DNA of 44,622 bases, taken from Gammaproteobacteria bacterium. GTDB taxonomy: Bacteria > Pseudomonadota > Gammaproteobacteria > Pseudomonadales > Cellvibrionaceae. The notes below the pieces were generated by a model. The model searched no databases. It saw nothing but the letters and a program-made list of their open reading frames with translations, and was not told where the DNA came from. Positions 5,629 through 44,300 of this stretch are shown here, one piece after another (the first letter of the stretch is position 1; each line of letters opens with the position of its first letter). A program made the translations under genes and the position numbers. The stretch lies in assembly GCA_025362015.1 (NCBI GenBank), contig JANYIO010000107.1, positions 1-44,622 of the forward strand, in the 5' to 3' direction.

Positions 5629-6429
5629 ATGAACAGGTTTCGAATATTAATATGGAGTGGTTTATGGCTGCTTTTGCTCACGAACACTACAAATGCTCAA
5701 TCCAACTATTTATTAGGTGTAGGCGATGAAATACACCTAACAGTTTACGGACAGCCAGAACTCACCGCTGAAGGTCAAATCAATTCCGATGGCGCCATGC
5801 AGATACCCTTACTCGGAAATGTAAAAATAGCGGGGATTTCCAGTGCAGAGGCAGCCAAAGTCATTACTGAGCGTTATCAAAATGGTAATTTTTTAAAAAG
5901 TGCGCAGGTGAATGTATTAATTACCAAATATCGTAGCCAAACGGTAGCCATTTTGGGCAAGGTCAATCACCCCGGCAAACTCATTTTGGAAGGCGCAACC
6001 TCACTAACTCAAGCCATAGCTTGGGCTGGTGGCGTGGCAGATGCAGGCAGCGAACGAATTATCCTGATTCGTAACAATGTCAATGGCCGTGAAGAGCGCC
6101 ATGAATATGATCTGCAAAAACTACTTAATCGTGAAGCTGACACCAGCCCCGTGGTGTGGCTGAAAGATGGCGACACACTCTATATCCCTGTTGCTGGGCG
6201 CTTTTATGTTAATGGTGAAGTTCATGCTCCAGGTATGTATGCCTTGGATCGACCACTCAATGTCATGCAGGCATTGGGCGTAGGTGGCGGCCTCAATTCC
6301 CGCGCTAGTGAACGCTCAGTGAAGCTGTTTCGTAAACAAGCCGATGGCTCAGTGAAAGAATTGCGCGCTAAACCTGATGAATCAGTTTTGGATGGTGATG
6401 TACTGGTTGTTCAGGAAAGCCTCTTCTAA
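5629..6429 (+). CDS. gumB-like: Polysaccharide export protein, Wza/GumB family (Poly_export + SLBB)
   Basis: Signal peptide then YLLGVGDEIHLTVYGQPELTAEGQINSDGAMQIPLLGNVKIAG and SLBB-type FYVNGEVHAPGMYALDRPLNVMQALGVGGG. Confidence 0.92.
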   Translation: MNRFRILIWSGLWLLLLTNTTNAQSNYLLGVGDEIHLTVYGQPELTAEGQINSDGAMQIPLLGNVKIAGISSAEAAKVITERYQNGNFLKSAQVNVLITKYRSQTVAILGKVNHPGKLILEGATSLTQAIAWAGGVADAGSERIILIRNNVNGREERHEYDLQKLLNREADTSPVVWLKDGDTLYIPVAGRFYVNGEVHAPGMYALDRPLNVMQALGVGGGLNSRASERSVKLFRKQADGSVKELRAKPDESVLDGDVLVVQESLF

Positions 6430-6439
6430 GGAGAAAAAT

Positions 6440-7819
6440 ATGACTTTAAATACGTTAATTCGAATTTTATTTGCACACAGACGAATCATCATTGGCATCA
6501 CACTTGGAGCGCTAGTAATTGCTGGCTTACTGATTTTTATTATGCCAAAAACCTACACGGCTACCACTGACTTGATTGTCGATGGTAAAGGTCAAGATCC
6601 AATTAGCGGGCAGGTTTTGCAGGGGCGTTTATCAGCAGGTTATATTGGTACCCAAGCCGATATTATTCGCAGCCGGAACGTCGCAAAAAAGGTTATCGAT
6701 CAGCAAAAACTAACGCTAAATACTGATTTAGCAACTGAACTGCATCTTGTGGATGACGAGCAAATAAAACGTCGCGCCTTACTTTCATATTTGAACGGAG
6801 GGCTGGATGTTACTCCTCAACGTGATAGTAGTGTATTGAGTATTAGTTTTGCAGCACGTAACCCGGAACTAGCCGCACAATTGGCAGATGCTTTCGCGCA
6901 AGCTTATATCAAAACCAACCTCGAGTTGCGTATTGAGCCTGCCAAACAAATTACTCAATGGTATGACGAACAACTCACTTCACTGCGCGTCAATCTTATT
7001 GAAAAACAGAATGTTTTATCTGCGTACCAGGAAAAACATAATATTTTAGCGTCTTCCGACCGGCTCGATCTGGAGTCAGCCAAATTAGCTGAATTATCGT
7101 CCATGTTGATTGCTGCACAAAGTGAACGGCTTAATAGCACCAATCGCAACGAGCAAATGACGGGCAAACGCGGTGCTGTACCTTCACAAGCGCTGGATAA
7201 CCCGCAGGTTCAAAGGCTGTCAGGCCAACTTGCCGAAGCAGAGGCCCGACTTGAGGATATGGCAACCAAGGTAGGTGAAAACCATCCTCAGTACCGCCAA
7301 ATTCAAGGTGAAGTGGATTCGCTAAAACAACAACTAGACCAGGCACTCCGTTTCATCAATGGCAGCTTACGTTCCTCGGTTGAACTTTCCCAATCGCGTG
7401 AGGCTCAACTCACCGCTGAACTAGCTGCGCAAAAAGAGCGTGTTATGCAACTTAGCGGTAATCGCAACGAATTAGCTTTGCTTAAGCAAGAAGTCGATAA
7501 TGCCCAATCAGCCTATGACGCAGCTCTTGCACGCGCTACAGCAACTAAACTCGAAAGCCAAATTGCGCAAACAGATATTGCGCTTTTAAATCCCGCAACA
7601 GTTCCTACCACTCCAACCTCACCAAAATCACTCATGATCTTATTTTTAGCAGGCGTTAGTAGCCTGCTATTTGGCGTTGGAATGGTGCTTTGCTGGGAAT
7701 GGCTGGATAGGCGAATTCGCGGTACCAATGACCTTGAAAAAATATTAGGTTTACCAGTACTTGCTTGCATTCCCGCTGATCGCGGCAGCAATTTATTACA
7801 CAAAGAGGTGATGGTGTGA
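6440..7819 (+). CDS. gumC-like: Chain-length determinant, Wzz/GumC (EpsF) family
   Basis: ATG at 6440 preceded by AAGGAGAAAAAT; Wzz N-terminal TM, long coiled coil, C-terminal TM; PATVPTTPTSPKSLMILFLAG. Confidence 0.9.
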   Translation: MTLNTLIRILFAHRRIIIGITLGALVIAGLLIFIMPKTYTATTDLIVDGKGQDPISGQVLQGRLSAGYIGTQADIIRSRNVAKKVIDQQKLTLNTDLATELHLVDDEQIKRRALLSYLNGGLDVTPQRDSSVLSISFAARNPELAAQLADAFAQAYIKTNLELRIEPAKQITQWYDEQLTSLRVNLIEKQNVLSAYQEKHNILASSDRLDLESAKLAELSSMLIAAQSERLNSTNRNEQMTGKRGAVPSQALDNPQVQRLSGQLAEAEARLEDMATKVGENHPQYRQIQGEVDSLKQQLDQALRFINGSLRSSVELSQSREAQLTAELAAQKERVMQLSGNRNELALLKQEVDNAQSAYDAALARATATKLESQIAQTDIALLNPATVPTTPTSPKSLMILFLAGVSSLLFGVGMVLCWEWLDRRIRGTNDLEKILGLPVLACIPADRGSNLLHKEVMV

Positions 7820-8691
7820 ACGATTTAGCTAACATGCGTCAAGACGAAACTACGGGTCAAAAGCCGCCCTCCAAAATGGGAAGGATGCTGCTCGATAGCG
7901 GGAAAATTAGCGCCGCTGACTTTAAGTCAATACTGGAGACTCAAGTAGCACGAGACCTACGGTTTGGCGATGCTGCTTTAGAATTAGGTTTAGCCAATAC
8001 AGCGGATATCCAAGACGTACTAGCGCAGCAATTTGCCTACCCACTCATCCCTCAGTCAAACAGCAAATTAGATCCACGCTTATTCACGGCGTTTCGTCCC
8101 GATAGCCGCCAAACAGAAGCACTACGCAGTTTACGAAGTGAACTGCAACTGCGCTATTTTAATCATCGCCCCCATTTAAGCCTTGCCTTAGTCGGCGCCG
8201 AAGACGCATTGGGTATAGCGCTTACCACCGCCAATTTGGCTATTACTTTTGCGCAATTAGGTATACGCACCTTACTGGTGGACAGCAATCTACGCTCACC
8301 ACAGTTACATAAATTATTCGGCCTCAACGAACGCAATCCCGGCCTCACAGACTTGATTGCGAAGCGAGTATTACTTGAGCCCAATGCTATTCCAGAGCTG
8401 GGTTCACTGTGGCTGTTACCGGCGGGCACGCAGGCCCCCAACCCACAAGAACTACTTGCCAGCCAACACTATTCAAAACGCATGAGGGAGTTAAGTGAAA
8501 ACTTTGACTTAATTCTCCTCAGTACGGCACCCTTGAATCGTACGCTTGATGCTCAGCTAGTAGCAGCCCATGCAGGTGCTGCACTGGTGGTGGTTCAGGA
8601 AGATGTCTCGCGTCTGGAAGATGTCGAAACCATTTGCAACAACTTAAGAGGATTTGGAGTTCGTTTGCTGGGCGCTGCATTACGCAAGTAA
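7816..8691 (+). CDS. EpsG-like chain-length regulator / BY-kinase homologue with MshEN/GspE-N-like N-terminus and degenerate Walker A
   Basis: GRMLLDSGKISAADFKSILETQVARDLRFGDAALELGLANTADIQDVLAQQFAYPLI plus ParA/Wzc-like fold (TLLVDSNLRSPQLHKLFGL); P-loop position reads VGAEDALGIALTTANLA. Confidence 0.82.
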   Translation: MNDLANMRQDETTGQKPPSKMGRMLLDSGKISAADFKSILETQVARDLRFGDAALELGLANTADIQDVLAQQFAYPLIPQSNSKLDPRLFTAFRPDSRQTEALRSLRSELQLRYFNHRPHLSLALVGAEDALGIALTTANLAITFAQLGIRTLLVDSNLRSPQLHKLFGLNERNPGLTDLIAKRVLLEPNAIPELGSLWLLPAGTQAPNPQELLASQHYSKRMRELSENFDLILLSTAPLNRTLDAQLVAAHAGAALVVVQEDVSRLEDVETICNNLRGFGVRLLGAALRK

Positions 8692-8713
8692 AGCAAGCGT
8701 TCCCAAAGGGGCC

Positions 8714-10072
8714 ATGATGAATTACTCACACCAGCACAACCTAGATTCTGACATGCATTCTGTAATGCCCGGTTATTCTCCACAGATGTTAACAACCCCT
8801 GTCTCACTCGCTCAGCCGGCCACCCCCACCGATCAAAATTTGGTAATTGCTATTGTTATCGCCACGGTCACTTACCAGGCCATGCTCTGTATGCTTAATA
8901 CTCACTTGCATGCAGTATCGCGCAGCTTGGTAGGCTTGGCGGAAGTAGTAATTTTGCTAGCGTGTCTCCCGATTCTGGCGCGCCGGCTGCTACCTGGAAT
9001 TATTATTATTGCCACCTTCGCGGGCGCGATGCTTACTCTGCTGACGCTGTTCAGTGGAGAAGTAAATATTAAAGCCTTTCGCGACCTACTAATTCCACTG
9101 TGTTATTTTTGGCTAGGATGTAATGTAGGCCGCCCCGAACTTGCTGACCGTGCGCTGACTTACGCCATTATGATTGTGTTGGGATTGGGGATGATGGAGT
9201 TATTGTTTCTCGATCAATACACCAATATTTTCGACATTTTCAACTACTACGTGAGTATAGGTAACCTGCAACCCATTACCGATTACGTTCGTGAAAGTCA
9301 CCTGCAACTTAACGGTATTCGCCCTGAAGGCATTGGTCGAACACTCTTGCCCTCGCTGTTAGGTAGTCATCGTGTTTCATCAGTGTTTTTGGAACCGGTA
9401 TCACTTGGTAACTTTGCAACTATCTGCGCAGCTTGGGGTTTAAGCCGGGATAAAGCAGAGCTACGTCAAATAGTATTTTTTGTCGGTGCGGCAGTTGTGT
9501 TGATGGTGTTATCTGATTCGCGTTTTGCACTTATCTCGGTCACCCTAATGATTGCAATGCGTCTGCTGTTGAATGGTAAAGCGCTGAACCTCACCGTGCT
9601 TGCACCCTTCGCAGCCATTGGCTTACTAATGATATTGGGATACCACACATCAGGAAGAGGAGATGACAATTTTCACGATCGTTTAGCATTGTCCGGTAGA
9701 TCACTTCTGGATTTCGATCTACCAACGCTATTTGGTGTTGCACATGGTGATAACTTTTCAGACCAGGGTTACGCATACGTCATATCTACTTTTGGTTTGC
9801 CTATATGCATTCTGCTTTGGCTTAGCTTCTGGTTTCTAACTATGCCCGACGAACGCGGTCAACGTTTCCGCGCGTTCAGCTCTATTTATATCGCCCTGAT
9901 TCTTTGCATTAGTGGCTACTCACTATTTGCGCTCAAGAGTGCCGGTGTACTTTGGTTTCTAATGGGCTGCAGCTTAAAAACACCTGCCCCTTTACCTAAA
10001 CCTTTGCCATCACTTGAGCCTTCCCTGCCCACTATGAGCAACTCAATCGAGAGTAGAAAATATGTCGATTAA
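8714..10072 (+). CDS. Polytopic membrane protein, Wzy/GumE-type polysaccharide polymerase
   Basis: Multiple TM helices, O-antigen-polymerase-like, located in the EPS operon; likely start ATG 8714 rather than 8654. Confidence 0.7.
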   Translation: MMNYSHQHNLDSDMHSVMPGYSPQMLTTPVSLAQPATPTDQNLVIAIVIATVTYQAMLCMLNTHLHAVSRSLVGLAEVVILLACLPILARRLLPGIIIIATFAGAMLTLLTLFSGEVNIKAFRDLLIPLCYFWLGCNVGRPELADRALTYAIMIVLGLGMMELLFLDQYTNIFDIFNYYVSIGNLQPITDYVRESHLQLNGIRPEGIGRTLLPSLLGSHRVSSVFLEPVSLGNFATICAAWGLSRDKAELRQIVFFVGAAVVLMVLSDSRFALISVTLMIAMRLLLNGKALNLTVLAPFAAIGLLMILGYHTSGRGDDNFHDRLALSGRSLLDFDLPTLFGVAHGDNFSDQGYAYVISTFGLPICILLWLSFWFLTMPDERGQRFRAFSSIYIALILCISGYSLFALKSAGVLWFLMGCSLKTPAPLPKPLPSLEPSLPTMSNSIESRKYVD

Positions 10073-11192
10073 GGTTACCCATGTCGTGCGTCAATACCTA
10101 CCGTCCATCGGCGGCATGGAAGAGGTTGTGCGCAATATCGCCATGCATCAAGTACGTAAAGGTTACGAGGGTATCCGCATCATTACGCTCAATAGATTGT
10201 TTCGCAACGCAAAAGAACAGCTCCCCGCTCGCGAAATAATGGATGGAATCGAGGTAATAAGGCTCCCATATTATGGTTCTAGCCGTTACCCGCTGTGCCC
10301 GAGCATTCTCCGTCAGCTAAGTGAAACAGATGTAGTTCATGTACATGGGGTAGATTTTTTCTATGACTTTTTAGCCGCAACCAAGTGGCTACATCGGCGC
10401 CCACTTATTCTTTCCACTCACGGTGGTTTCTTTCATACCCGTTTTGCCTCGCGCGCCAAACAAGCTTATTTCAACACTATTACGCGCTTATCTTCATATG
10501 CCTATAACAGCGTGATTGCTACCAGTGCTAACGACGGCCTATTGTTCGGCCAAATTATGGGCAATCCCAAATTACAGGTGATTGAAAACGGGGTGGACAT
10601 AGAAAAGTTTGCCACTCAAGCCGCGAGCGAACTGCAACCTACGTTGATCTATTTTGGGCGTTGGTCAGCCAATAAAGGCTTGCTGGAATCGCTCGAATTA
10701 TTCTCTCAACTGCATGCTCGTTCGAGTGCCTGGCAGCTCATTATTACCGGGCGAGAATATGACCACAGCTTAATCGAATTACAAACTCTGGTAAATGAGA
10801 TGGGGTTGCAAAACTGTGTACAGCTAGTTGCAAATCCCAGTGACACTGAAATTTGTAAGCTAATACAGCAGGCCAGTTATTATCTATGCCTCTCGCGCCA
10901 TGAAGGTTTCGGCATTGCACCGATTGAAGCGATGAGTGCCGGCCTAACGCCAATTCTCAGTGATATTCCCCCATTCCGGCGCCTAATCGACAATTCAGAG
11001 TTAGGTTTCACTATAAACGACCTATCCAACATGAGAACAGCAGTCAACCAGTTGACCAGTCTGCATGCACAAGGTAACTCGGCATACCTCAAACGTCGTA
11101 CTTCAGCGATCAATTTTGCCGCTCAGTATGCTTGGCCACAGGTTGCCGACAACTATTTAGCGCTGTATGAAAAATGGGGAGCATCCGCATGA
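10062..11192 (+). CDS. gumH-like: GT4 glycosyltransferase, GumH-like (alpha-1,3-mannosyltransferase in the xanthan pathway)
   Basis: THVVRQYLPSIGGMEEVVRNIA, VHGVDFFYDFLAATKWLHRRPLILSTHGGFFHT, LIYFGRWSANKGLLE, CLSRHEGFGIAPIEAMSAGLTPILSDIPPF; strong recalled resemblance to Xanthomonas GumH. Confidence 0.9.
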   Translation: MSIKVTHVVRQYLPSIGGMEEVVRNIAMHQVRKGYEGIRIITLNRLFRNAKEQLPAREIMDGIEVIRLPYYGSSRYPLCPSILRQLSETDVVHVHGVDFFYDFLAATKWLHRRPLILSTHGGFFHTRFASRAKQAYFNTITRLSSYAYNSVIATSANDGLLFGQIMGNPKLQVIENGVDIEKFATQAASELQPTLIYFGRWSANKGLLESLELFSQLHARSSAWQLIITGREYDHSLIELQTLVNEMGLQNCVQLVANPSDTEICKLIQQASYYLCLSRHEGFGIAPIEAMSAGLTPILSDIPPFRRLIDNSELGFTINDLSNMRTAVNQLTSLHAQGNSAYLKRRTSAINFAAQYAWPQVADNYLALYEKWGASA

Positions 11193-12283
11193 AAAACTCG
11201 CTGCACAACTTGCTAAAGCGCTCAGCAATATTGGGTTTCAGTTGCTTGCTCGCGTCCCCACTCGCAGCAGCATCCTGTTTAAATGATGTGCGTTTAACCG
11301 GCGTTAATCTCGCCGGTGCTGAATTTCATACAAATAAGTTACCCGGCAACCCGGAAAAAGACTACGCGTACCCCAAAGAAAGCGAACTTAGCTATATTGC
11401 TGCGCAGGGCGCCAACGTCGTTCGCTTACCGTTCCGCTGGGAGCGTATCCAGCACCAAATTCTCAGCCCGCTCGATACAGATGAAGTAAAACGTCTACAA
11501 AAAACTATTAAATCTGCTAATGAAAAAGGCTTGTGCGTCATTATTGATGTTCACAATTACGCCAAATACTACAGCCAACCACTGCAAGACGATGCTGCGT
11601 TACAAGATGCGTTTGTAGATCTCTGGCTGCGTCTTGCCGCTGTTTTTACGGACGCCAACAGCACGGCTTTCGACCTGATGAATGAGCCTAACTATATGTC
11701 CAATGGACAATGGGCAACACTTGCCAAACGTACCCTTGCTGAATTACGACACTCCCATGCAAAAAATTTAGTATTTATTGGCGGCGGCCACTGGAGCGGC
11801 TTGCACGATTGGTTTAGTGAGCGCGATGGCATCTCTAACGCAAGCGTTTTTGCCGACATTAAAGATCCGCTGAAACGCGCGATTGTGGAGGTACACCAAT
11901 ACGCAGATCAGAACCATTCGGGTACCGGTAGTGATTGCCGCTCCGCCGATCAGTTCAATGACCTATTTGACAAGCTTGGTGCTTGGGCAAACGAGAATGG
12001 GCAACAACTCTTTCTCGGTGAATTTGGAATGGCTCCATCAGCAGACTGCTTACTGACGTTAGAACGGTTTCTCACATTAATGAATGGTCCAGCCTGGAAA
12101 GGTTGGAGCTACTGGGCAGCAGGAAGTTGGTGGGGCGGTTACCCTTTGGCGATAAACACTAATGCTGAAACACCATCGCCACAATGGCAGCTATTAAAAA
12201 AATATTTTGCCGGGAATCTTGCTAACAAAAGCCAACCGCTACCACCTGAACACGTAACTATTCCAAAAACCTATAAACGATGA
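11189..12283 (+). CDS. Secreted glycoside hydrolase family 5 (endoglucanase-like)
   Basis: Signal peptide; FRWERIQ, VIIDVHNYAKYY, FDLMNEPNYMS (acid/base E), LFLGEFGMAP (nucleophile E), WSYWAAGSWWGGYPL. Confidence 0.9.
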   Translation: MKNSLHNLLKRSAILGFSCLLASPLAAASCLNDVRLTGVNLAGAEFHTNKLPGNPEKDYAYPKESELSYIAAQGANVVRLPFRWERIQHQILSPLDTDEVKRLQKTIKSANEKGLCVIIDVHNYAKYYSQPLQDDAALQDAFVDLWLRLAAVFTDANSTAFDLMNEPNYMSNGQWATLAKRTLAELRHSHAKNLVFIGGGHWSGLHDWFSERDGISNASVFADIKDPLKRAIVEVHQYADQNHSGTGSDCRSADQFNDLFDKLGAWANENGQQLFLGEFGMAPSADCLLTLERFLTLMNGPAWKGWSYWAAGSWWGGYPLAINTNAETPSPQWQLLKKYFAGNLANKSQPLPPEHVTIPKTYKR

Positions 12284-12301
12284 TGAATCCAACCAATGGA
12301 G

Positions 12302-12331
12302 AAGGCTATGTCCAATAAGGCTATGTCCAAT
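12302..12331 (+). repeat. Perfect 15-bp tandem duplication spanning the gumK-like start codon
   Basis: AAGGCTATGTCCAAT x2 (12302-12316, 12317-12331). Confidence 0.95.
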
Positions 12332-13498
12332 GCAGCGGCTATTATCCGTGAAGCAGATTCGACTGCAGCGCAAACACCGTTTGACGAGACTTTTTTAGTG
12401 CTCTCAGCACATGATTACCGCTCACCACGCAAGGCAGGTGTCCATTTTATTGCTGAAGAATTGGCGAAGCGCGGACGCACTCGTTTTTTCTCGTTGCGTT
12501 ATAGTTTTTTATCGCGTTACACGGCTGACCCACGCCTAACACTGGATGCCGAAGCTAATCGTATCGACATACATAACGGTGTGGAGTGCTACCTGTGGAA
12601 AACCTTGATCCATCCCTTTAATACTCGCCGTAACTGGCTGCGTTTAGCGGAAACCTGGATGTACCGCTGGTACAGCAAGGGCCAAAATTCTGTGCTACAC
12701 CAGTGGATACAAGAAGCATCCGTTATTATTTTAGAAAGTGGTGTGGCCCCGGTATTTTTTGATCTGATTAAACGATTAAATCCCGATGCGACCATTGTCT
12801 ATCGTGCGTCAGATGCTCTCGAAACTATTAATGTTGCTGCCTATGTTAATGACACTTTTACACGCATCGCGGCTGATATTCACACGATTGTATTACCCTC
12901 AAAAGCTCTAGCGGAAACAATTCCTAGTAGCCATAATTTAGCTTTTGTTCCGCAAGGTATTGATTACTCCATTGCCGAAAAAGCCGATCCATCACCTTAT
13001 GGTCCGGGAATTCATGCAGTATCCATTGGCTCTATGTTATTTGATCCGAGCTTTTTTATTCTCGCTGCGAAAAACTTTCCTAATATTCATTTTCATATCA
13101 TTGGCTCTGGCCAACCGAGGCATTCTGAATACGGTACTAACGTAAGCGTGTACGGTGAAATGCCGTTTGCGCAAACACTGCCTTACATCAAACACGCACA
13201 GCTGGGGATCGCTCCTTATAGCAGCAACAATATGCCCGCCTATTTACGCGATACCTCATTGAAATTACTACAATATGATTTTTTTAGTCTTCCGGCAATT
13301 TGCCCAACATTTATCGCTGCAGATTATCCCAATCGTTATGGCTACCAAATTGGGAATGCTGAAAGTATTACTCAGGCCATTAATCACGCCTTAAATCCAC
13401 ACGCACGATCAATACCTCGACCTGTATTTAGCTGGAGCCAGGTTACCGATCGGATGTTAGCACCACAATTATTTCGCGACACAGAAATGGCGGTATGA
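12308..13498 (+). CDS. gumK-like: GT70 glucuronosyltransferase, GumK-like
   Basis: LVLSAHDYRSPRKAGVHFIAEELAKRGRTRFFSLRYSFLSR, LIHPFNTRRNWLR, IGSMLFDPSFF, IIGSGQPRHSEYG, YIKHAQLGIAPYSS, LKLLQYDFFSLPAICP; near-collinear with GumK from memory. ATG 12308 has an upstream GGAG; the ORF track starts at 12296. Confidence 0.92.
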   Translation: MSNKAMSNAAAIIREADSTAAQTPFDETFLVLSAHDYRSPRKAGVHFIAEELAKRGRTRFFSLRYSFLSRYTADPRLTLDAEANRIDIHNGVECYLWKTLIHPFNTRRNWLRLAETWMYRWYSKGQNSVLHQWIQEASVIILESGVAPVFFDLIKRLNPDATIVYRASDALETINVAAYVNDTFTRIAADIHTIVLPSKALAETIPSSHNLAFVPQGIDYSIAEKADPSPYGPGIHAVSIGSMLFDPSFFILAAKNFPNIHFHIIGSGQPRHSEYGTNVSVYGEMPFAQTLPYIKHAQLGIAPYSSNNMPAYLRDTSLKLLQYDFFSLPAICPTFIAADYPNRYGYQIGNAESITQAINHALNPHARSIPRPVFSWSQVTDRMLAPQLFRDTEMAV

Positions 13499-14331
13499 GC
13501 ATGTCTGAAAACTCTCGCAATAACTTCCCCAACAACTCACGTGATAAATCGCTCAACCATGCACCTGATAAATCGCGTGATCAATCACACAATATTTCAC
13601 TCGGTGGTTTTAGTATTTTGCGCACAACGGGCGCCGCACTTGAACAACAACTTGCGCTAGCCTTGAATGCTGCTGAGCAAAAAATATTATTTTTTGCCAA
13701 CACCAACTTCATCGTTAAATGCCAAGCCCTACAACCGCAAATGCAAACTGCAAATACTCTCATCGTCAATGATGGTATAGGTGTGGATATTGCTACTTGG
13801 GTTATTCATCGCGAAAAATTCCCTGAAAATCTTAACGGCACCGATTTTATTCCGCACTACTTGCACAGTGTTTGCAATCAGGCACGCGTGTTTTTAGTGG
13901 GAGGAAAGCCAGGCATTGCAATACGCGCAGCCACGACACTTCGCGAGCAATTTAATGTTCACGTTGTTGGCAGCTGCGATGGTTACGCACAATCACAAGA
14001 TACGCAAAAAGTTATCGCAGAAATAAATGCATCAGCCGCGAATGTAGTACTGGTCGCTATGGGCAACCCGATGCAAGAAAAATGGATATTAGAAAATCGT
14101 CAACTGCTTAACGCATCAGTATTTATTGGTGTAGGTGCCCTATTGGATTTTCTGGCAGGAGATAAACCTCGCGCACCACATCTTATCCAAAAATTTCGCC
14201 TCGAATGGCTGTATCGCTTATGTTTAGAGCCTACGCGCTTAATGCGGAGATATACCCTTGATATTGCAGTATTTCTTGCGCTCTGTATTCGCACAGAAAA
14301 ATGGCGTAAAAATGCCATGAAAACTCATTAG
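13495..14331 (+). CDS. gumM-like: WecG/TagA/CpsF family glycosyltransferase (GT26), GumM-like
   Basis: ILFFANTNFIVKCQ, TLIVNDGIGVDIATWV, NLNGTDFIPHYL, VFLVGGKPGIA, VVLVAMGNPMQEKWI, FIGVGALLDFLAGDKPRAP. Confidence 0.92.
   Translation: MSMSENSRNNFPNNSRDKSLNHAPDKSRDQSHNISLGGFSILRTTGAALEQQLALALNAAEQKILFFANTNFIVKCQALQPQMQTANTLIVNDGIGVDIATWVIHREKFPENLNGTDFIPHYLHSVCNQARVFLVGGKPGIAIRAATTLREQFNVHVVGSCDGYAQSQDTQKVIAEINASAANVVLVAMGNPMQEKWILENRQLLNASVFIGVGALLDFLAGDKPRAPHLIQKFRLEWLYRLCLEPTRLMRRYTLDIAVFLALCIRTEKWRKNAMKTH
13510..13593 (+). repeat. Degenerate 12-bp repeat (tetrapeptide xSxN/D) at the GumM-like N-terminus
   Basis: NSRN NFPN NSRD KSLN HAPD KSRD QSHN: seven tetrapeptide units. Confidence 0.7.
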
Positions 14332-14341
14332 GACAAACTCA

Positions 14342-15532
14342 ATGCGAATTTTAGCTTCACCCGCGTTTGCGAATGAAAAAGTTAACCCATACAATGCGTT
14401 GCTTTATCGCGGCATAGAAAGTGTTGTTGTAGAAACTGTTGTTGTAGAAACTGTTGCTACAGAAACTGTCGACTCTACAATTATCGATTCAAAAACTATC
14501 GCCAACAAAGCTATCGATAGAAAAACCAACAACAGCAAAATCATAAAACCATCCGTAAGCGAATATTCACATAAAAAAGCATTTCTGGGAAAATACGACA
14601 TAATTCATTTTCATTGGCCGGACGGATACATTAATCAGCGTAGCTTATTAAAGCTCATCCAAAGAGCATTTATATTTTCTCTGATCATTTTAATGACAAA
14701 ATTAAAAGGCGCAAAAATCGTATGGACAGTTCACAATATTGCACCACACGACGCCTATCATCCGAAACTTTCGCGTTTATTTATGGATTGGTTTATTAAT
14801 CGTTGTAATGGTTTAATATTCATGAGCGAAGCCAGCAAAACAACATTTTTTAACCTCTACCAACCACCAGCAACAATTCAATATGCCATTATCCCTCACG
14901 GCCACTACCGTAGCTCTTATCCTGCAGCCATTGACAAGGCGATTGCAAAAACTCAACTCGAATTATCCCCGGATAAAAAAATTCTCCTTTTTTGCGGAAT
15001 GATAAAACCCTATAAAAACATCAACTCACTTATTCAAAATTTTAGCCAAGCTCAGCTCGCTGACTACGAGCTAGTGATTGCGGGTAACCCAGACTCACTC
15101 CAACTTGCAAAACAATTGCAACAACAAAAAGGCAACAATTCAAGCATCCATTTATTTCTACGTTTTATTCCTGACGCGGAACTCCATGTTTATTTAAGCG
15201 CAGCAGACGTTGTGATATTACCCTATAAATCAATACTCAATTCCGGTGCATTACTATTGGCCCTTTCATTTAACAAACCCGTCATAGCCCCACACATTGG
15301 TGCCTTCGTTGCACTCCAGCAAGAATTGGGCTCGCAATGGGTATATAGCTATGAGGGTGATTTACAAACACAAACCTTAACTTCAGCGTTATATGAACTT
15401 GAAAAACTAGAACGTGCCACAATTTGCCCGTTAGAAAACTACGATTGGAATAAACTTGCAGCATTAACAGTTGCATTTTATCAACATCTTTTTCTACCGC
15501 CAGCCACTCGCAATCAACAAGTGATGTCATGA
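14342..15532 (+). CDS. gumI-like: Glycosyltransferase, GumI-like (beta-mannosyltransferase in the xanthan pathway)
   Basis: YDIIHFHWPDGYI, KIVWTVHNIAPHD, LLFCGMIKPYKNINSL, VVILPYKSILNSGALLLALSFNKPVIAP, GSQWVYSYEGDL; resembles GumI. Confidence 0.85.
   Translation: MRILASPAFANEKVNPYNALLYRGIESVVVETVVVETVATETVDSTIIDSKTIANKAIDRKTNNSKIIKPSVSEYSHKKAFLGKYDIIHFHWPDGYINQRSLLKLIQRAFIFSLIILMTKLKGAKIVWTVHNIAPHDAYHPKLSRLFMDWFINRCNGLIFMSEASKTTFFNLYQPPATIQYAIIPHGHYRSSYPAAIDKAIAKTQLELSPDKKILLFCGMIKPYKNINSLIQNFSQAQLADYELVIAGNPDSLQLAKQLQQQKGNNSSIHLFLRFIPDAELHVYLSAADVVILPYKSILNSGALLLALSFNKPVIAPHIGAFVALQQELGSQWVYSYEGDLQTQTLTSALYELEKLERATICPLENYDWNKLAALTVAFYQHLFLPPATRNQQVMS
14423..14542 (+). repeat. Eight-unit 15-bp (pentapeptide) degenerate tandem repeat within the GumI-like CDS
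   Basis: VVVET VVVET VATET VDSTI IDSKT IANKA IDRKT NNSKI; the first two units are identical at DNA level (gttgttgtagaaact). Confidence 0.9.
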
Positions 15533-17019
15533 CTTTAAAAAAACGTTTAGGTAGTAGCACCGCGTGGATGAGCCTTGCCGCCACTGGCAATAGTGCCATC
15601 AGCTTTATTATTTTTATTGTTTTATCGCGAATTCTTACACCCAGTGATATTGGCCTAGTGGCATTTTCACTGATTGTAGTTGAGATTGGCAAGATCATCG
15701 TAAATGCAGGATTTTCTCAAGCCGTAGTGCAAAAGCCAGAATGGGATGACGTCTATGCATCAACTTGCTTTTACTTAAATATTATTTTTTCAATTGTTGT
15801 TACACTCGTGGTTATTTTTATAGCCGCACCACTCATTGGCCATTACTACCAGGCCCAAGCTGAACCCATAGTAAAAGTTTTATCAATTATTTTTTTTATA
15901 GAAGGGTTAAAAGCTGTTCATGAAGGAAAACTAAAACGTGAATTTTCATTTAAAGTTATCGCTATTAGAACCATACTTGCCGGCCTAATACCTGGTACAG
16001 TAGGAATTTATTTGGCGCTACATAACTTTGGCGTATGGGCGCTGGTATGGCAGCAGCTTTTGAATCAAATTGTGGTAACAGTTCTAACATTGATTACTGC
16101 GAAATGGATGCCGAGATTTGTTTTTTCTTTCACGCAAGCGAAGCAGCTGCTTGCATTTTCATCGCCATTAATGCTGTCACAGCTGATTAGCAATATCAGC
16201 TCGAAAATATTTGAATTGCTTATTGGCATTATTATTGGCCCCGCCGCACTTGGCTTTTATCGCGTTGGTGGTAGAGCCTTATATATTTTACAAGATATTA
16301 TTTTAAAACCCTTTGAACATACAGCGCTCTCCGCATTATCAAGAGTAAACGGAGTATCACAACAAGCTCGGGCGACCGTGCGAATGATACGAATGAGTTC
16401 ATACCTGACATTCCCTATTTTTTTTGGCGCAGCGGCAGTCGCACCTGAATTTATTACATTGGCCTTTGGCGAAAAATGGGCCGAGAGCGGCAACATTATG
16501 ACGATCCTCGCGATAGGTATAGCGCCGATAATTGTTGGCTTACATGTTAATGCCGCGTTAACCGCCAGCGACAATTCACGCTTTGTTATGTTACTTGCCA
16601 TTATTGCACTTATTATTAATTGCAGCTTGGGTGCACTGACAGTCCCATTGGGATTAACAGCAACCGCGTGGGGATTCAGTTTTCGTAGTTATCTCATTGC
16701 AGGCTTAAGTTTATTTTTCTTCAGATACATTTTTGATATTAGCTGCAACGATATGCTGAAAAACCTGGCGCCCAGCTTTATAGCTTCAACCATCATGTTC
16801 GCCGTAGTATTCGTCAGCAAATCACTGTTTGAAAATCATTTACCTGCAGCACTGAATATTATTGTCTTATGCGCGATTGGCGCCATATCCTACATGCTAT
16901 TAATGATAATCCTTTTTAAAAAGGAGACAAAAAATTTCTTTACGGAAAGCATTGACATTGCACCCAGTAATGTAAAACCTTACATTGGTGCCATTCAACG
17001 TTTAATCAATTTAACTTAA
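15529..17019 (+). CDS. gumJ-like: Wzx-type lipid-linked oligosaccharide flippase (MOP superfamily), GumJ-like
   Basis: SSTAWMSLAATGNSAISFIIFIVLSRILTPSDIGLVAFSLIVVEIGKIIVNAGFSQAVVQ; about 12-14 TM segments. Confidence 0.9.
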   Translation: MTLKKRLGSSTAWMSLAATGNSAISFIIFIVLSRILTPSDIGLVAFSLIVVEIGKIIVNAGFSQAVVQKPEWDDVYASTCFYLNIIFSIVVTLVVIFIAAPLIGHYYQAQAEPIVKVLSIIFFIEGLKAVHEGKLKREFSFKVIAIRTILAGLIPGTVGIYLALHNFGVWALVWQQLLNQIVVTVLTLITAKWMPRFVFSFTQAKQLLAFSSPLMLSQLISNISSKIFELLIGIIIGPAALGFYRVGGRALYILQDIILKPFEHTALSALSRVNGVSQQARATVRMIRMSSYLTFPIFFGAAAVAPEFITLAFGEKWAESGNIMTILAIGIAPIIVGLHVNAALTASDNSRFVMLLAIIALIINCSLGALTVPLGLTATAWGFSFRSYLIAGLSLFFFRYIFDISCNDMLKNLAPSFIASTIMFAVVFVSKSLFENHLPAALNIIVLCAIGAISYMLLMIILFKKETKNFFTESIDIAPSNVKPYIGAIQRLINLT

Positions 17020-17033
17020 AAAAAGAGCGCATC

Positions 17034-17807
17034 ATGATTAAATCTTATCTTATCAATCTTGATAAAGACTCTGAACGACTTAATTTTATTACCGCTAATT
17101 TTAAAAAGCTGGGAATTGAATTTGAACGAATTGCCGCTATTGATGGGCGAACATTCTCTGAACAGGCCTTTCAGGAATTTTTAAAGGTTCGCCCGCGCAA
17201 TAATAAATCCTGGATGCGGGGACAAATGGGTTGTTTTTTAAGTCATTACGCTGCGTGGGAAAAAGCTTCTCAAGGGAATGAGCGCTTTTATGCGGTGTTC
17301 GAAGATGACATTCACATATCGGATGATTTAAAACAAATTTTGAACGATGACAGTTGGATACCAGATGACGTTGATATTATTCGTCTTGAAACATCCACCA
17401 ATAGAGTTCGCTTAACATCGCAACCATTACTAACACATGCCAAGCGAAAAATATTCGGTGTGAAATCTACCAGCTGGTGCGCGGGGGGTTACCTTATAAA
17501 TCGCAGAACAGCACAACAACTCGTAAATTTACCTGCGAAGTATCATGAGCCTTCAGATGTTATTTTATATAATTTTGATGATTCAATTATTGCGAAAGAA
17601 CTTAACATCCTGCAGTTTCATCCCGCGCTCTGTACTCAGGATAAACATTTAGCAACAGGAAATTTAAAATTTTCCAGCAATATCGAATTATCCGCACCCA
17701 AAAAAGCGTCGCGATTAATCCTCAAACTAAAACAGACTAACCCAATAAGCATTATTGGTGGCGTATATCGATCGTTACGAGGTTACAAACGCATTGGCTT
17801 TCACTAA
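17034..17807 (+). CDS. Glycosyltransferase family 25 (LPS biosynthesis type)
   Basis: SYLINLDKDSERLNFITANFKKLGIEFERIAAIDGR, GQMGCFLSHYAAWEKA, YAVFEDDIHIS, AGGYLINRRTAQQLV. Confidence 0.9.
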   Translation: MIKSYLINLDKDSERLNFITANFKKLGIEFERIAAIDGRTFSEQAFQEFLKVRPRNNKSWMRGQMGCFLSHYAAWEKASQGNERFYAVFEDDIHISDDLKQILNDDSWIPDDVDIIRLETSTNRVRLTSQPLLTHAKRKIFGVKSTSWCAGGYLINRRTAQQLVNLPAKYHEPSDVILYNFDDSIIAKELNILQFHPALCTQDKHLATGNLKFSSNIELSAPKKASRLILKLKQTNPISIIGGVYRSLRGYKRIGFH

Positions 17808-21451: not shown

Positions 21452-21808
21452 TTGATATGTAAAAACAACGGAAAAAAATTCAAGAATACTGAATGGCGCG
21501 CGCTTCATTTCAAGGCACACCCTGAAAAAATGCTCATGAAAGTAATGCACAACAGAAAAAATAAAATCTTTTGTGACCAGGAGTCAGAACTATATAAAAT
21601 AAGATGGCTTCAATCGGTGCGTTGGCACACATACAATACTGTCAGCGGAGCAATTGTCGTTTTAACGAAAGGCCGCGAAGAGGTGGATTTATTTTGTGCG
21701 GATTATTTGTTTGCGAAATGTATAAATAAAAAATCATTTAATGTCGCGGAAATTGTTTATGTAAATGCCCACATGCGGGCATCTATTGAATACTCGGCCT
21801 CTATTTGA
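21452..21808 (+). CDS. Hypothetical small protein
   Basis: 118-aa ORF divergent from gumD; no recognised domain; end abuts a repeat array. Confidence 0.35.
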   Translation: MICKNNGKKFKNTEWRALHFKAHPEKMLMKVMHNRKNKIFCDQESELYKIRWLQSVRWHTYNTVSGAIVVLTKGREEVDLFCADYLFAKCINKKSFNVAEIVYVNAHMRASIEYSASI

Positions 21809-21912
21809 TACACAGTTCCTATTTTTTGATACGCAGTTCCTGTTTTTTAATAAGCAGTTCCTATTTTTGATACACAATTCCTATTTTTGATGCACAGCTC
21901 TATTTGATGCGT
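21801..21912. repeat. Tandem array of about five and a half 18-21 bp units
   Basis: CTATTTGATACACAGTTC / CTATTTTTTGATACGCAGTTC / CTGTTTTTTAATAAGCAGTTC / CTATTTTTGATACACAATTC / CTATTTTTGATGCACAGCTC / TATTTGATGCGTC. Confidence 0.92.
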
Positions 21913-41131: not shown

Positions 41132-41175
41132 CAAGCTGTGATTAGTTTTATAACAAGCTGTGATTAGTTTTATAA
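41132..41175. repeat. Perfect 22-bp tandem duplication upstream of the TonB receptor gene
   Basis: CAAGCTGTGATTAGTTTTATAA x2, directly adjacent. Confidence 0.97.
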
Positions 41176-41364: not shown

Positions 41365-44300
41365 ATGTTCCATAACCATACGAAAAATATGCAATTCCGA
41401 CGCTCACTGCTAGCAATGTCCATCATCGCCTTGGGCTCACCTACACTTGCACTGGCTCAAACTGCTCCTGCTACAACTCCTGATGAGGTTGAAGAAGTTG
41501 TTGTGTTAGGCGTTAAAGGTGCACAAAAATCCGCGATTGAATCGAAGCGTACCGCTGCTTCTATTGTTGATGGTTTTTCTGCAGAAGATATTGGTAAATT
41601 ACCCGATGCGACAGTAACCGATTCATTGCAACGCATTACTGGTGTACAAATTCAGCGCAACGCGGGTGAAGGCTCTAAAGTCAGTATTCGTGGTATGCAA
41701 CAAATTGCCACCATGTTAAATGGCGAGCAATTTTTAGGTGCGGGTAACCTAACTTCAGCGCAACCAAACCTGAATGATATTCCCGCGCAATTATTGAATG
41801 GCACTATTGTTTACAAATCATTGGATGTACGAAACGCAACTTCAGGTATTACGGGTACAGTTAACCTTACTACTTACCGCCCACTAAGCTTTAAAGAAGG
41901 CTTAACCACTGCAGGCGGTATCGAAGCCTCAATGGGGGAATTGACCAAAAAAACCCACCCTACCTTTAACGCTTTATTGAATTGGCGTACCGATACTGTT
42001 GGCATTTTGATTTCAGGCGTTACTGGCACGAAGAACCTCGCCAGTGATTATGCCGGCACTGGTCAAGGTGGCCTTGACAGTCTCCATTCAGGCGCAGTTT
42101 TAGCTGAGAATGGAACAACTTATGTTGCAGATAACGCACCAGGATACGATTTTTTTAAGGAACAAATAGAACGCGAACGCACTGGTTTTAACGTTTCCCT
42201 GGAAGCGGATTTGAGTAATGGTTTTAAATTTATCGCAGAGGCATTTTCTGCTCATTCCAAAAGCTATGATCGTGCAACAGGTTTGGATATTTCCAATCGT
42301 TGGTTGAGTGAAACAAATAGCACGGAGCATGTTGATGCAAATGGACTATATCCACCAGATGCAGTAGGCCCACTACACACCGTGACTTCAGGTAATGGTT
42401 TTTGGCGTGACGCAGGCAATGGCTGGCATGGTGGTGCTATTGCTATGCCGACTAACACAACAGCGACTGCTGTCGGTAAAGATGGCACAAAATGGGCAAC
42501 CGCGAGCCAATATGATATTGATGCGCTTTGGGTAGATACCTACAGTATTAACAACGTGACCACTACCGATTCCAAAAACTATAATTTTGAATTGAATTAC
42601 GATAACGGTGGGCAATTTACCGGTGGTTTACGCGCAATAAAAGGCACCGCTACCAATTTGGCATTACACGCTAATGCCCAAGGCGACTTTAGCAATTGGC
42701 AAGGTAGCCAGGCTGAAAAGTTAAATACCTTTTACCCTAGAGATATTGCCAATAAATTTACACCGGATACACGCCATACCGAAGTGGGTGTTAATGGCGG
42801 CTATTATGTGAACCCCAATCCTGAAGGTTATGGTTCAGATCCGCAGCTGACGCTGAGCCGCAAAAATCACCTGCAAACCTGGGGTGGTTTTAATCGTGTT
42901 ATTGGTGGTGGCCTGGGTGCTAACTCAACACTGGCTGATTATATGGCCAATGAAAAAAGCCAAACGATTGGCTCTTATGCGCTGGAATACAATGTTGATG
43001 CGTCCTCTGATCTCAGTGCGTTAAGCGCGCACGGTAGATACGCATTTGAAAGTGATGATATGTTTTTCACGGATGTCGAAGTAGGTTTGAGATCCAGCAA
43101 ACGTAGTGTGGATACCACTACCTTTATGATGTTTTCACCGTTTTATCAAAACTCAAGCAACTACGGCACTAACCCAACTAATCCTTCGGTTAATATTGCT
43201 GGCTGCTCTGCGCAATGGAAAGCCATTGATCAGGCGTTTGATGGTGGCGAAAACCATAGCCAATGTTCTGCCGGCGAACGTTTAGTTGGCCGCGAGAATG
43301 ATCCTACCTCATTCACGCCCTACACCATTTTACAGCCCACTAAAATTGATGCTTACGGCGCAAAAGTAACTTTTGTGAAAAGCCTTGGCGCAAATGTTAA
43401 AGGCATTCCTGGCTTCTACGCGATAGATCCACATACCTTTGATGACCCTATAGGTTTTGCCAACAAAGCTTTTGGTAGTTCTGCGCGCGAAATATCACCA
43501 GCACAAAGTTACGATATTAACCTGGAAGAAACTAGCGCTTATGCGTACAGTAATTTCAAAATGGGTATGGTGAGCGGTAACCTGGGAGTGAGGGTCATCG
43601 ACACTACACTTATGAGTAACGCCTACAAAACTACCGGTGTGACTAAAGCCAATGGTGATATCACCATTGCTAATGGCAGACTTGCGCAAGAGAAGACCTA
43701 TACCGACATCTTGCCCGCATTAAACGTAGCAATAGATGTTAGCGATGCCATTAAAGTACGCTTTGCCGCCGCAAGAACCAAACAAGAATTAGACCTGGAT
43801 CGTTATGGTTCAAGCCTGGATCTGCGTACCGCAGCTGATCCAAGTGATCCTACCAAGCGTGTCCCGAGTGGCTGGGCCTCAAATGGCAATATGGAACTAA
43901 AACCATGGCGCGCAAATAACTTTGATCTCTCTACGGAATACTACTTTGGCAATGCGAGCATGGTCTCCATTGGGGCTTACCACATTGCGATCAGTAGCTT
44001 TGTAGAAAGCCACCATTACAACAGAGACTTTGTCATCAACGGTGCAAACTACAGCCTTGAGGGTGATGGCCCTATTGTCGGCAAAGGCGGTAAAGTAGAT
44101 GGTCTTGAACTGGGCACTAAATTAGCATTTAGCGATCTGACATCTGGCTTCCTCGCTGATTTCGGTATTGATGCTAACTTCACTTATTCACCCAGCGAAA
44201 AAACAGGCACCGCTACTAACATTGCCGGTAAAAAATATCCATTTGAAAACAACTCGAAAGAAACCGCTAACTTAATTGCGTGGTATCAAAAAAATAAGTT

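Follow-up and report, generated by a model that had tools for sequence, protein, structure and literature searches.

In a Cellvibrio genome, three consecutive glycosyltransferase genes of a gum-like polysaccharide cluster each carry short in-frame tandem repeats, and this raises the question of whether the repeats have a role in the three enzymes or reflect a property of the genome as a whole. The source is a 96%-complete Cellvibrio draft genome of 328 contigs. The window, i.e., the whole stretch of DNA analyzed, is one entire contig (C267, 44,622 bp). No paper in the literature collection searched mentions Cellvibrio together with gumK.

Gum-like cluster and its repeat arrays

The cluster spans positions 5629-17807. 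It encodes three glycosyltransferases of interest, namely a GumK-like enzyme, a WecG/TagA-like (GumM-like) enzyme, and a generic GT-B enzyme at the GumI position, along with an EpsF-like chain-length protein, an EpsG-like kinase, a flippase, a GH5 cellulase-family protein, a possible polymerase, and further enzymes of the GT4 and GT25 families. The GH5 cellulase-family gene (11174-12283) lies inside the polysaccharide cluster, immediately 5' of gumK. The three glycosyltransferase genes and their arrays are as follows:

12296-13498, + strand: GumK-like glucuronosyltransferase gene (GT70; Pfam GumK_N, 221.6 bits; PDB 2hy7/2q6v, E 2.5e-134)
12302-12331, + strand: 15-bp perfect duplication, AAGGCTATGTCCAAT x2 (TRF, 100% identical), with a partial Shine-Dalgarno sequence and two in-frame ATGs within it
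13495-14331, + strand: WecG/TagA/CpsF-family glycosyltransferase gene, GumM-like (Pfam Glyco_tran_WecG, 188 bits; TIGR00696, 130 bits; PDB 7mpk, E 3e-28)
13510-13593, + strand: degenerate 12/24-bp array, NSRN-NFPN-NSRD-KSLN-HAPD-KSRD-QSHN, in the N-terminal extension preceding the conserved LGGF (TRF and shuffles)
14342-15532, + strand: GT-B glycosyltransferase gene, GumI-like by position (Pfam Glycos_transf_1, 50.9 bits; NCBIfam matches weak and generic)
14423-14542, + strand: eight 15-bp units, VVVET VVVET VATET VDSTI IDSKT IANKA IDRKT NNSKI, residues 28-67 (TRF)

All three arrays proposed in the preliminary description are real intragenic short tandem repeats, as TRF and codon-shuffle tests showed that their copies are more alike than expected by chance. 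The perfect GumK duplication including the start codon and the lists of seven tetrapeptides and eight pentapeptides were likewise correct, and every unit is in frame, with a length that is a multiple of 3. The arrays had also been placed near the start codons, which is accurate for the gumK-like and gumM-like genes but not for the gumI-like gene, in which the array begins at codon 28 and forms an internal insertion.

It is very unlikely that the arrays are assembly artefacts of a fragmented draft. Repeats are a known source of assembly errors and the draft consists of 328 contigs, but the arrays span only 30-120 bp, no more than about one short read, and their units have diverged; such units tend to be collapsed rather than created by short-read assembly, and the reading frames are intact throughout.

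N-terminal extensions of the GumK-like and GumM-like enzymes

The first enzyme belongs to GT70, as it has the GumK_N domain and is homologous over its full length to GumK of known structure. Homology to solved GumK (PDB 2hy7/2q6v) starts only at residue 32 of the protein, so the duplication lies outside the GumK fold. The fold is orthologous to that of Xanthomonas campestris GumK (PDB 2HY7, GT70) across residues 32-397, whereas the Cellvibrio repeat is upstream of the aligned fold and outside the family. Three in-frame ATGs are present, at 12296, 12308, and 12323, with Shine-Dalgarno duplex energies of +0.2, -6.4, and -2.0 kcal/mol, respectively, and translation probably starts at 12308, not 12296. 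Because 12308 has the best Shine-Dalgarno sequence, the duplication appears to have copied a partial ribosome-binding site together with the start codon, adding five residues. From 12308 to the conserved [FY]L[VLI]LSAHD motif there are 28 residues; congeners range from 14 to 33 (first plausible ATG, ATG-start congeners only; G005 and G008 have no ATG before the motif). An extension of this length is therefore ordinary for the genus. The 15-bp repeat was absent from all 15 congeneric GumK N-termini examined.

The start-codon duplication bears on the suggestion that the repeats form a contingency or tuning locus, in which unit number would alter GumK initiation or enzyme level or activity, so that exopolysaccharide output varies from cell to cell. 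The duplication overlaps the Shine-Dalgarno sequence and doubles the start codon, so copy number might affect expression at the GumK start; in GumI, the first units are similar enough (near-identical) that they could still slip. Repeat-number variation in Mycobacterium tuberculosis promoters is phase-variable (PMC12817950), which would also favor such a locus. Nevertheless, tuning is unlikely: gumK has two copies only, the stronger Shine-Dalgarno sequence still serves one start, the total GumK extension is inside the genus range, the GumM units and most GumI units are too degenerate for easy slippage, and unrelated genes carry arrays of a similar kind. Moreover, all units are multiples of 3 and thus provide no on/off frame switch.

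The GumM-like protein belongs to the WecG/TagA/CpsF family (GT26), an assignment at the level of that domain family. TRF detected a 24-bp repeat (2.0 copies, 82%) at 13530-13576, and self-identity across 13501-13593 exceeded that of 20,000 codon shuffles (lag-12, P=3e-4; lag-24, P=5e-5). Only one of 445 sampled genes of the same genome had an N-terminus as self-similar. The protein has 33 residues before LGGF, counted from the better ATG at 13501, versus 9-16 in 17 congeners, and this excess is due to the array. None of the 17 congeneric GumM sequences examined contained the repeat.

Added segments of this kind might instead be functional tails or loops that interact with the membrane, with one another, or with a partner, leading to a three-glycosyltransferase assembly. 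This reading could be favored by the fact that the substrate of all three enzymes is a lipid-linked intermediate, as established for xanthan. In simulation, the N-terminus of Xanthomonas GumK contacts the membrane (PMC12768416). However, such a role is quite unlikely for the Cellvibrio arrays, whose units share no sequence (polar/charged in GumM; Val/Ile/Thr/Glu in GumI) and are absent from every relative examined, despite the synteny of the gum genes and the conservation of the enzymes in congeners.

Internal insertion in the GumI-like enzyme

Model matches of the third enzyme were confined to the generic Glycos_transf_1 family and, weakly, to GT4, with no GT94 model among them, and its identification as GumI (GT94) rests on its position in the cluster. 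TRF reported 15-bp repeats at 14415-14469 and 14463-14501. Units 1-3 are near-identical (lag identity 0.87), and the last five are degenerate, yet they exceed codon shuffles (0.635, P=5e-5). The distance from LYR to EYxH is 10 residues in nine relatives, 15 in one (G020), and 50 in the GumI-like protein, in which the excess over the common linker length is 40 residues, i.e., eight units of 5 aa. The repeat was absent from all 10 congeneric GumI proteins examined.

The AlphaFold model of the window protein, built on a four-sequence alignment, has low confidence (mean pLDDT 58.9 overall; 25-31 in the insertion), and for this reason the insertion was placed only on the model of a relative that lacks it. 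In that model, of moderate confidence (mean pLDDT 70.0), a helix covers residues 16-27 and a strand residues 31-34, and the 40-aa insertion is predicted to map to the turn that joins helix 1 to strand 2 in the N-terminal glycosyltransferase domain. In GT-B Rossmann domains, helix-to-strand turns face away from the catalytic cleft; thus, an insertion at this turn could be tolerated and probably leaves catalysis undisturbed.

The same comparisons bear on the idea that the arrays are relics of a conserved structure that was present in the ancestor and that the relatives have lost. No support was found for it, yet variable-length N-terminal extensions precede GumK and GumM in all relatives. Against it, the GumI linker is exactly 10 aa long in nine of ten relatives, the 40 added residues equal exactly eight 5-aa units, and independent loss in each relative is less parsimonious; a relic origin is extremely unlikely. 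The absence of the repeats from congeneric orthologues agrees with the earlier view that these segments do not belong to the conserved structure of GumK, GumM, or GumI homologues. Unit number also differs from that in relatives, as anticipated, in a comparison between species rather than strains, and arrays are entirely lacking in the relatives.

Two further candidates for the GumI-like array were rejected. Pentapeptide-repeat proteins consist of A(D/N)LXX-type units and form a right-handed beta-helix; the VVVET/IDSKT-like units lack the central Leu motif and gave no Pfam pentapeptide match. A shared mobile repeat was also considered, but the array DNA occurs only once in its genome, with one chance-like 29-bp match elsewhere.

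Genome-wide excess of tandem repeats and origin of the arrays

We sampled 60 regions (660 kb) of the same genome, excluding the window, for interior arrays with a score of at least 60, coding or not. The sample contained 57 arrays (86/Mb). The controls, consisting of two congeners sampled in depth and a single locus from each of sixteen, gave 8 arrays in 400 kb for G009 (20/Mb), 7 in 400 kb for G020 (17.5/Mb), and 4 in 238 kb for the gum loci of the 16 congeners (17/Mb). Array density in the Cellvibrio genome was 4.7 times that of all controls pooled (P=3e-10). Shuffled sequence yielded 0-1 arrays, which rules out base composition as the cause of the excess. Among complete ORFs, in-frame arrays (score of at least 60) were found in 19 of 445 (4.3%), compared with 5 of 285 in G009 and 3 of 300 in G020 (Fisher P=0.087 and 0.013, respectively). 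In orthologue pairs, of which 28-36 overlapped between samples, the signal from insertion counts outside the window was too small for use. Since array density in the sampled regions exceeds that of the controls, the unusual thing is the genome, not the operon.

Similar arrays occur in intergenic DNA and in unrelated genes of this genome. A CorA-like gene (L109:12447-13505, - strand, contig C210) has an N-terminal expansion of 18-bp LRED units, in which MLRMFKVQG-TLRED is followed by repeated LRED. The distance from its ATG to the conserved WID is 64 aa, versus exactly 30 aa in all 17 congeners with a readable start, and the LRED-type units extend an LRED already found in many relatives. This expansion is the same type of event as the gum arrays, in an unrelated gene. 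Other ORFs of the genome with N-terminal short tandem units are:

L105:7172-7720, NIKTM units
L129:5844-7364, GSQNS units
L146:821-1219, NSI units
L138:15602-16012, AANL units

A search gave no close orthologues for the L129 gene.

The occurrence of arrays in three adjacent genes, which had been considered unusual, is only partly so. With arrays in 4.3% of 3,800 genes, about 0.3 runs of three adjacent array-bearing genes are expected per genome against this high background, and about 0.009 if arrays are confined to the first 75 codons (1.3% of genes), a criterion that was set post hoc, after the data were seen, and rests on six genes. The clustering is therefore mildly unusual, and it is not evidence of shared function.

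Taken together, these results suggest that the gum arrays are probably independent, lineage-specific local tandem duplications in length-tolerant segments, forming part of a genome-wide excess and not a gum-specific regulation. Three neighbors with arrays in their first 75 codons are improbable under the N-terminal background, and this counts against the explanation. We found no sign of the tuning of translation or dosage, the scaffolding, or the three-gene system that had been proposed: the units are unrelated, one array is inside the fold, the GumK extension length is ordinary, and similar arrays are found in unrelated genes and intergenic DNA. The gum arrays thus look like the product of a genome-wide mutational habit rather than an enzyme-tuning device, and an odd local pattern would be explained by a genome-wide property. 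That their lengths keep the frame is no evidence of a role, since in any functional gene selection would leave only such lengths.

According to this explanation, units of 12-24 bp would have been locally duplicated or expanded in tandem, independently at each of the three gum arrays, most likely by slipped-strand misalignment in replication or repair. Selection would then purge duplications that break the frame or strike structured or catalytic segments, and the permissive sites would be the two N-terminal extensions ahead of the fold and the helix 1-strand 2 turn of the GT-B domain. The arrays may have been retained because they keep the frame and lie in such length-tolerant segments, and they are presumably near-neutral. 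The GumI-like and CorA-like genes are the clear cases, in which a linker near-constant in the genus was enlarged by whole repeat units in one lineage.

KPC beta-lactamases provide a similar example of multiple-of-3 tandem insertions within loops of a folded enzyme, ascribed to polymerase slippage or related errors (PMC12593533). The KPC insertions are under drug selection and are mostly single duplications of 3-84 bp, whereas the Cellvibrio arrays have no known selection, reach eight units, and belong to a genome-wide excess. Intragenic VNTRs and promoter tandem repeats with copy-number variation, for example in M. tuberculosis (PMC12817950), also have tandem units near gene starts, and copy number might vary in Cellvibrio as well, although the Cellvibrio units are shorter, mostly degenerate, and known from one genome.

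It is conceivable, though doubtful, that 12-24-bp tandem duplications arise at a raised rate throughout the genome of this Cellvibrio lineage, lengthening protein linkers in many genes, from a cause other than the loss of MutS, MutL, PolA, RecJ, ExoVII, or ExoI. If the rate is truly raised, the lineage would be a natural system for studying the limits on short tandem expansion in bacteria and the tolerance of enzymes to it. A defect in mismatch repair or missing nucleases that suppress slippage were rejected as candidate causes, as the genome has genes for MutS, MutL, PolA, RecJ, XseA (ExoVII), and ExoI, each with an open frame. The match span of RecJ (C91:11299-12966) is 1668 bp versus mostly 1653 bp in congeners (about 15 bp longer), and that of XseA (C11:5258-6340) is 1083 bp versus 1023 bp in G002 and G009 over the same profile range of 1-344 (about 60 bp longer). 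These match spans hint that RecJ and XseA may also carry in-frame insertions.

Several other features were observed in the window. A protease-like ORF with an HELGHNMGLKH zinc motif is truncated by the contig start (3-974, - strand); its Ser/Ala/Lys-rich C-terminal linker, ordinary for Cellvibrio secreted enzymes, yields a 72-bp repeat. A 21-bp unit (TTTGATACACAGTTCCTATTT-like) is repeated five times at 21804-21905, mainly in intergenic DNA, at the end of one ORF and ahead of another. In addition, a 22-bp perfect direct duplication (CAAGCTGTGATTAGTTTTATAA) at 41132-41175 lies upstream of a 1069-aa ORF at 41365.
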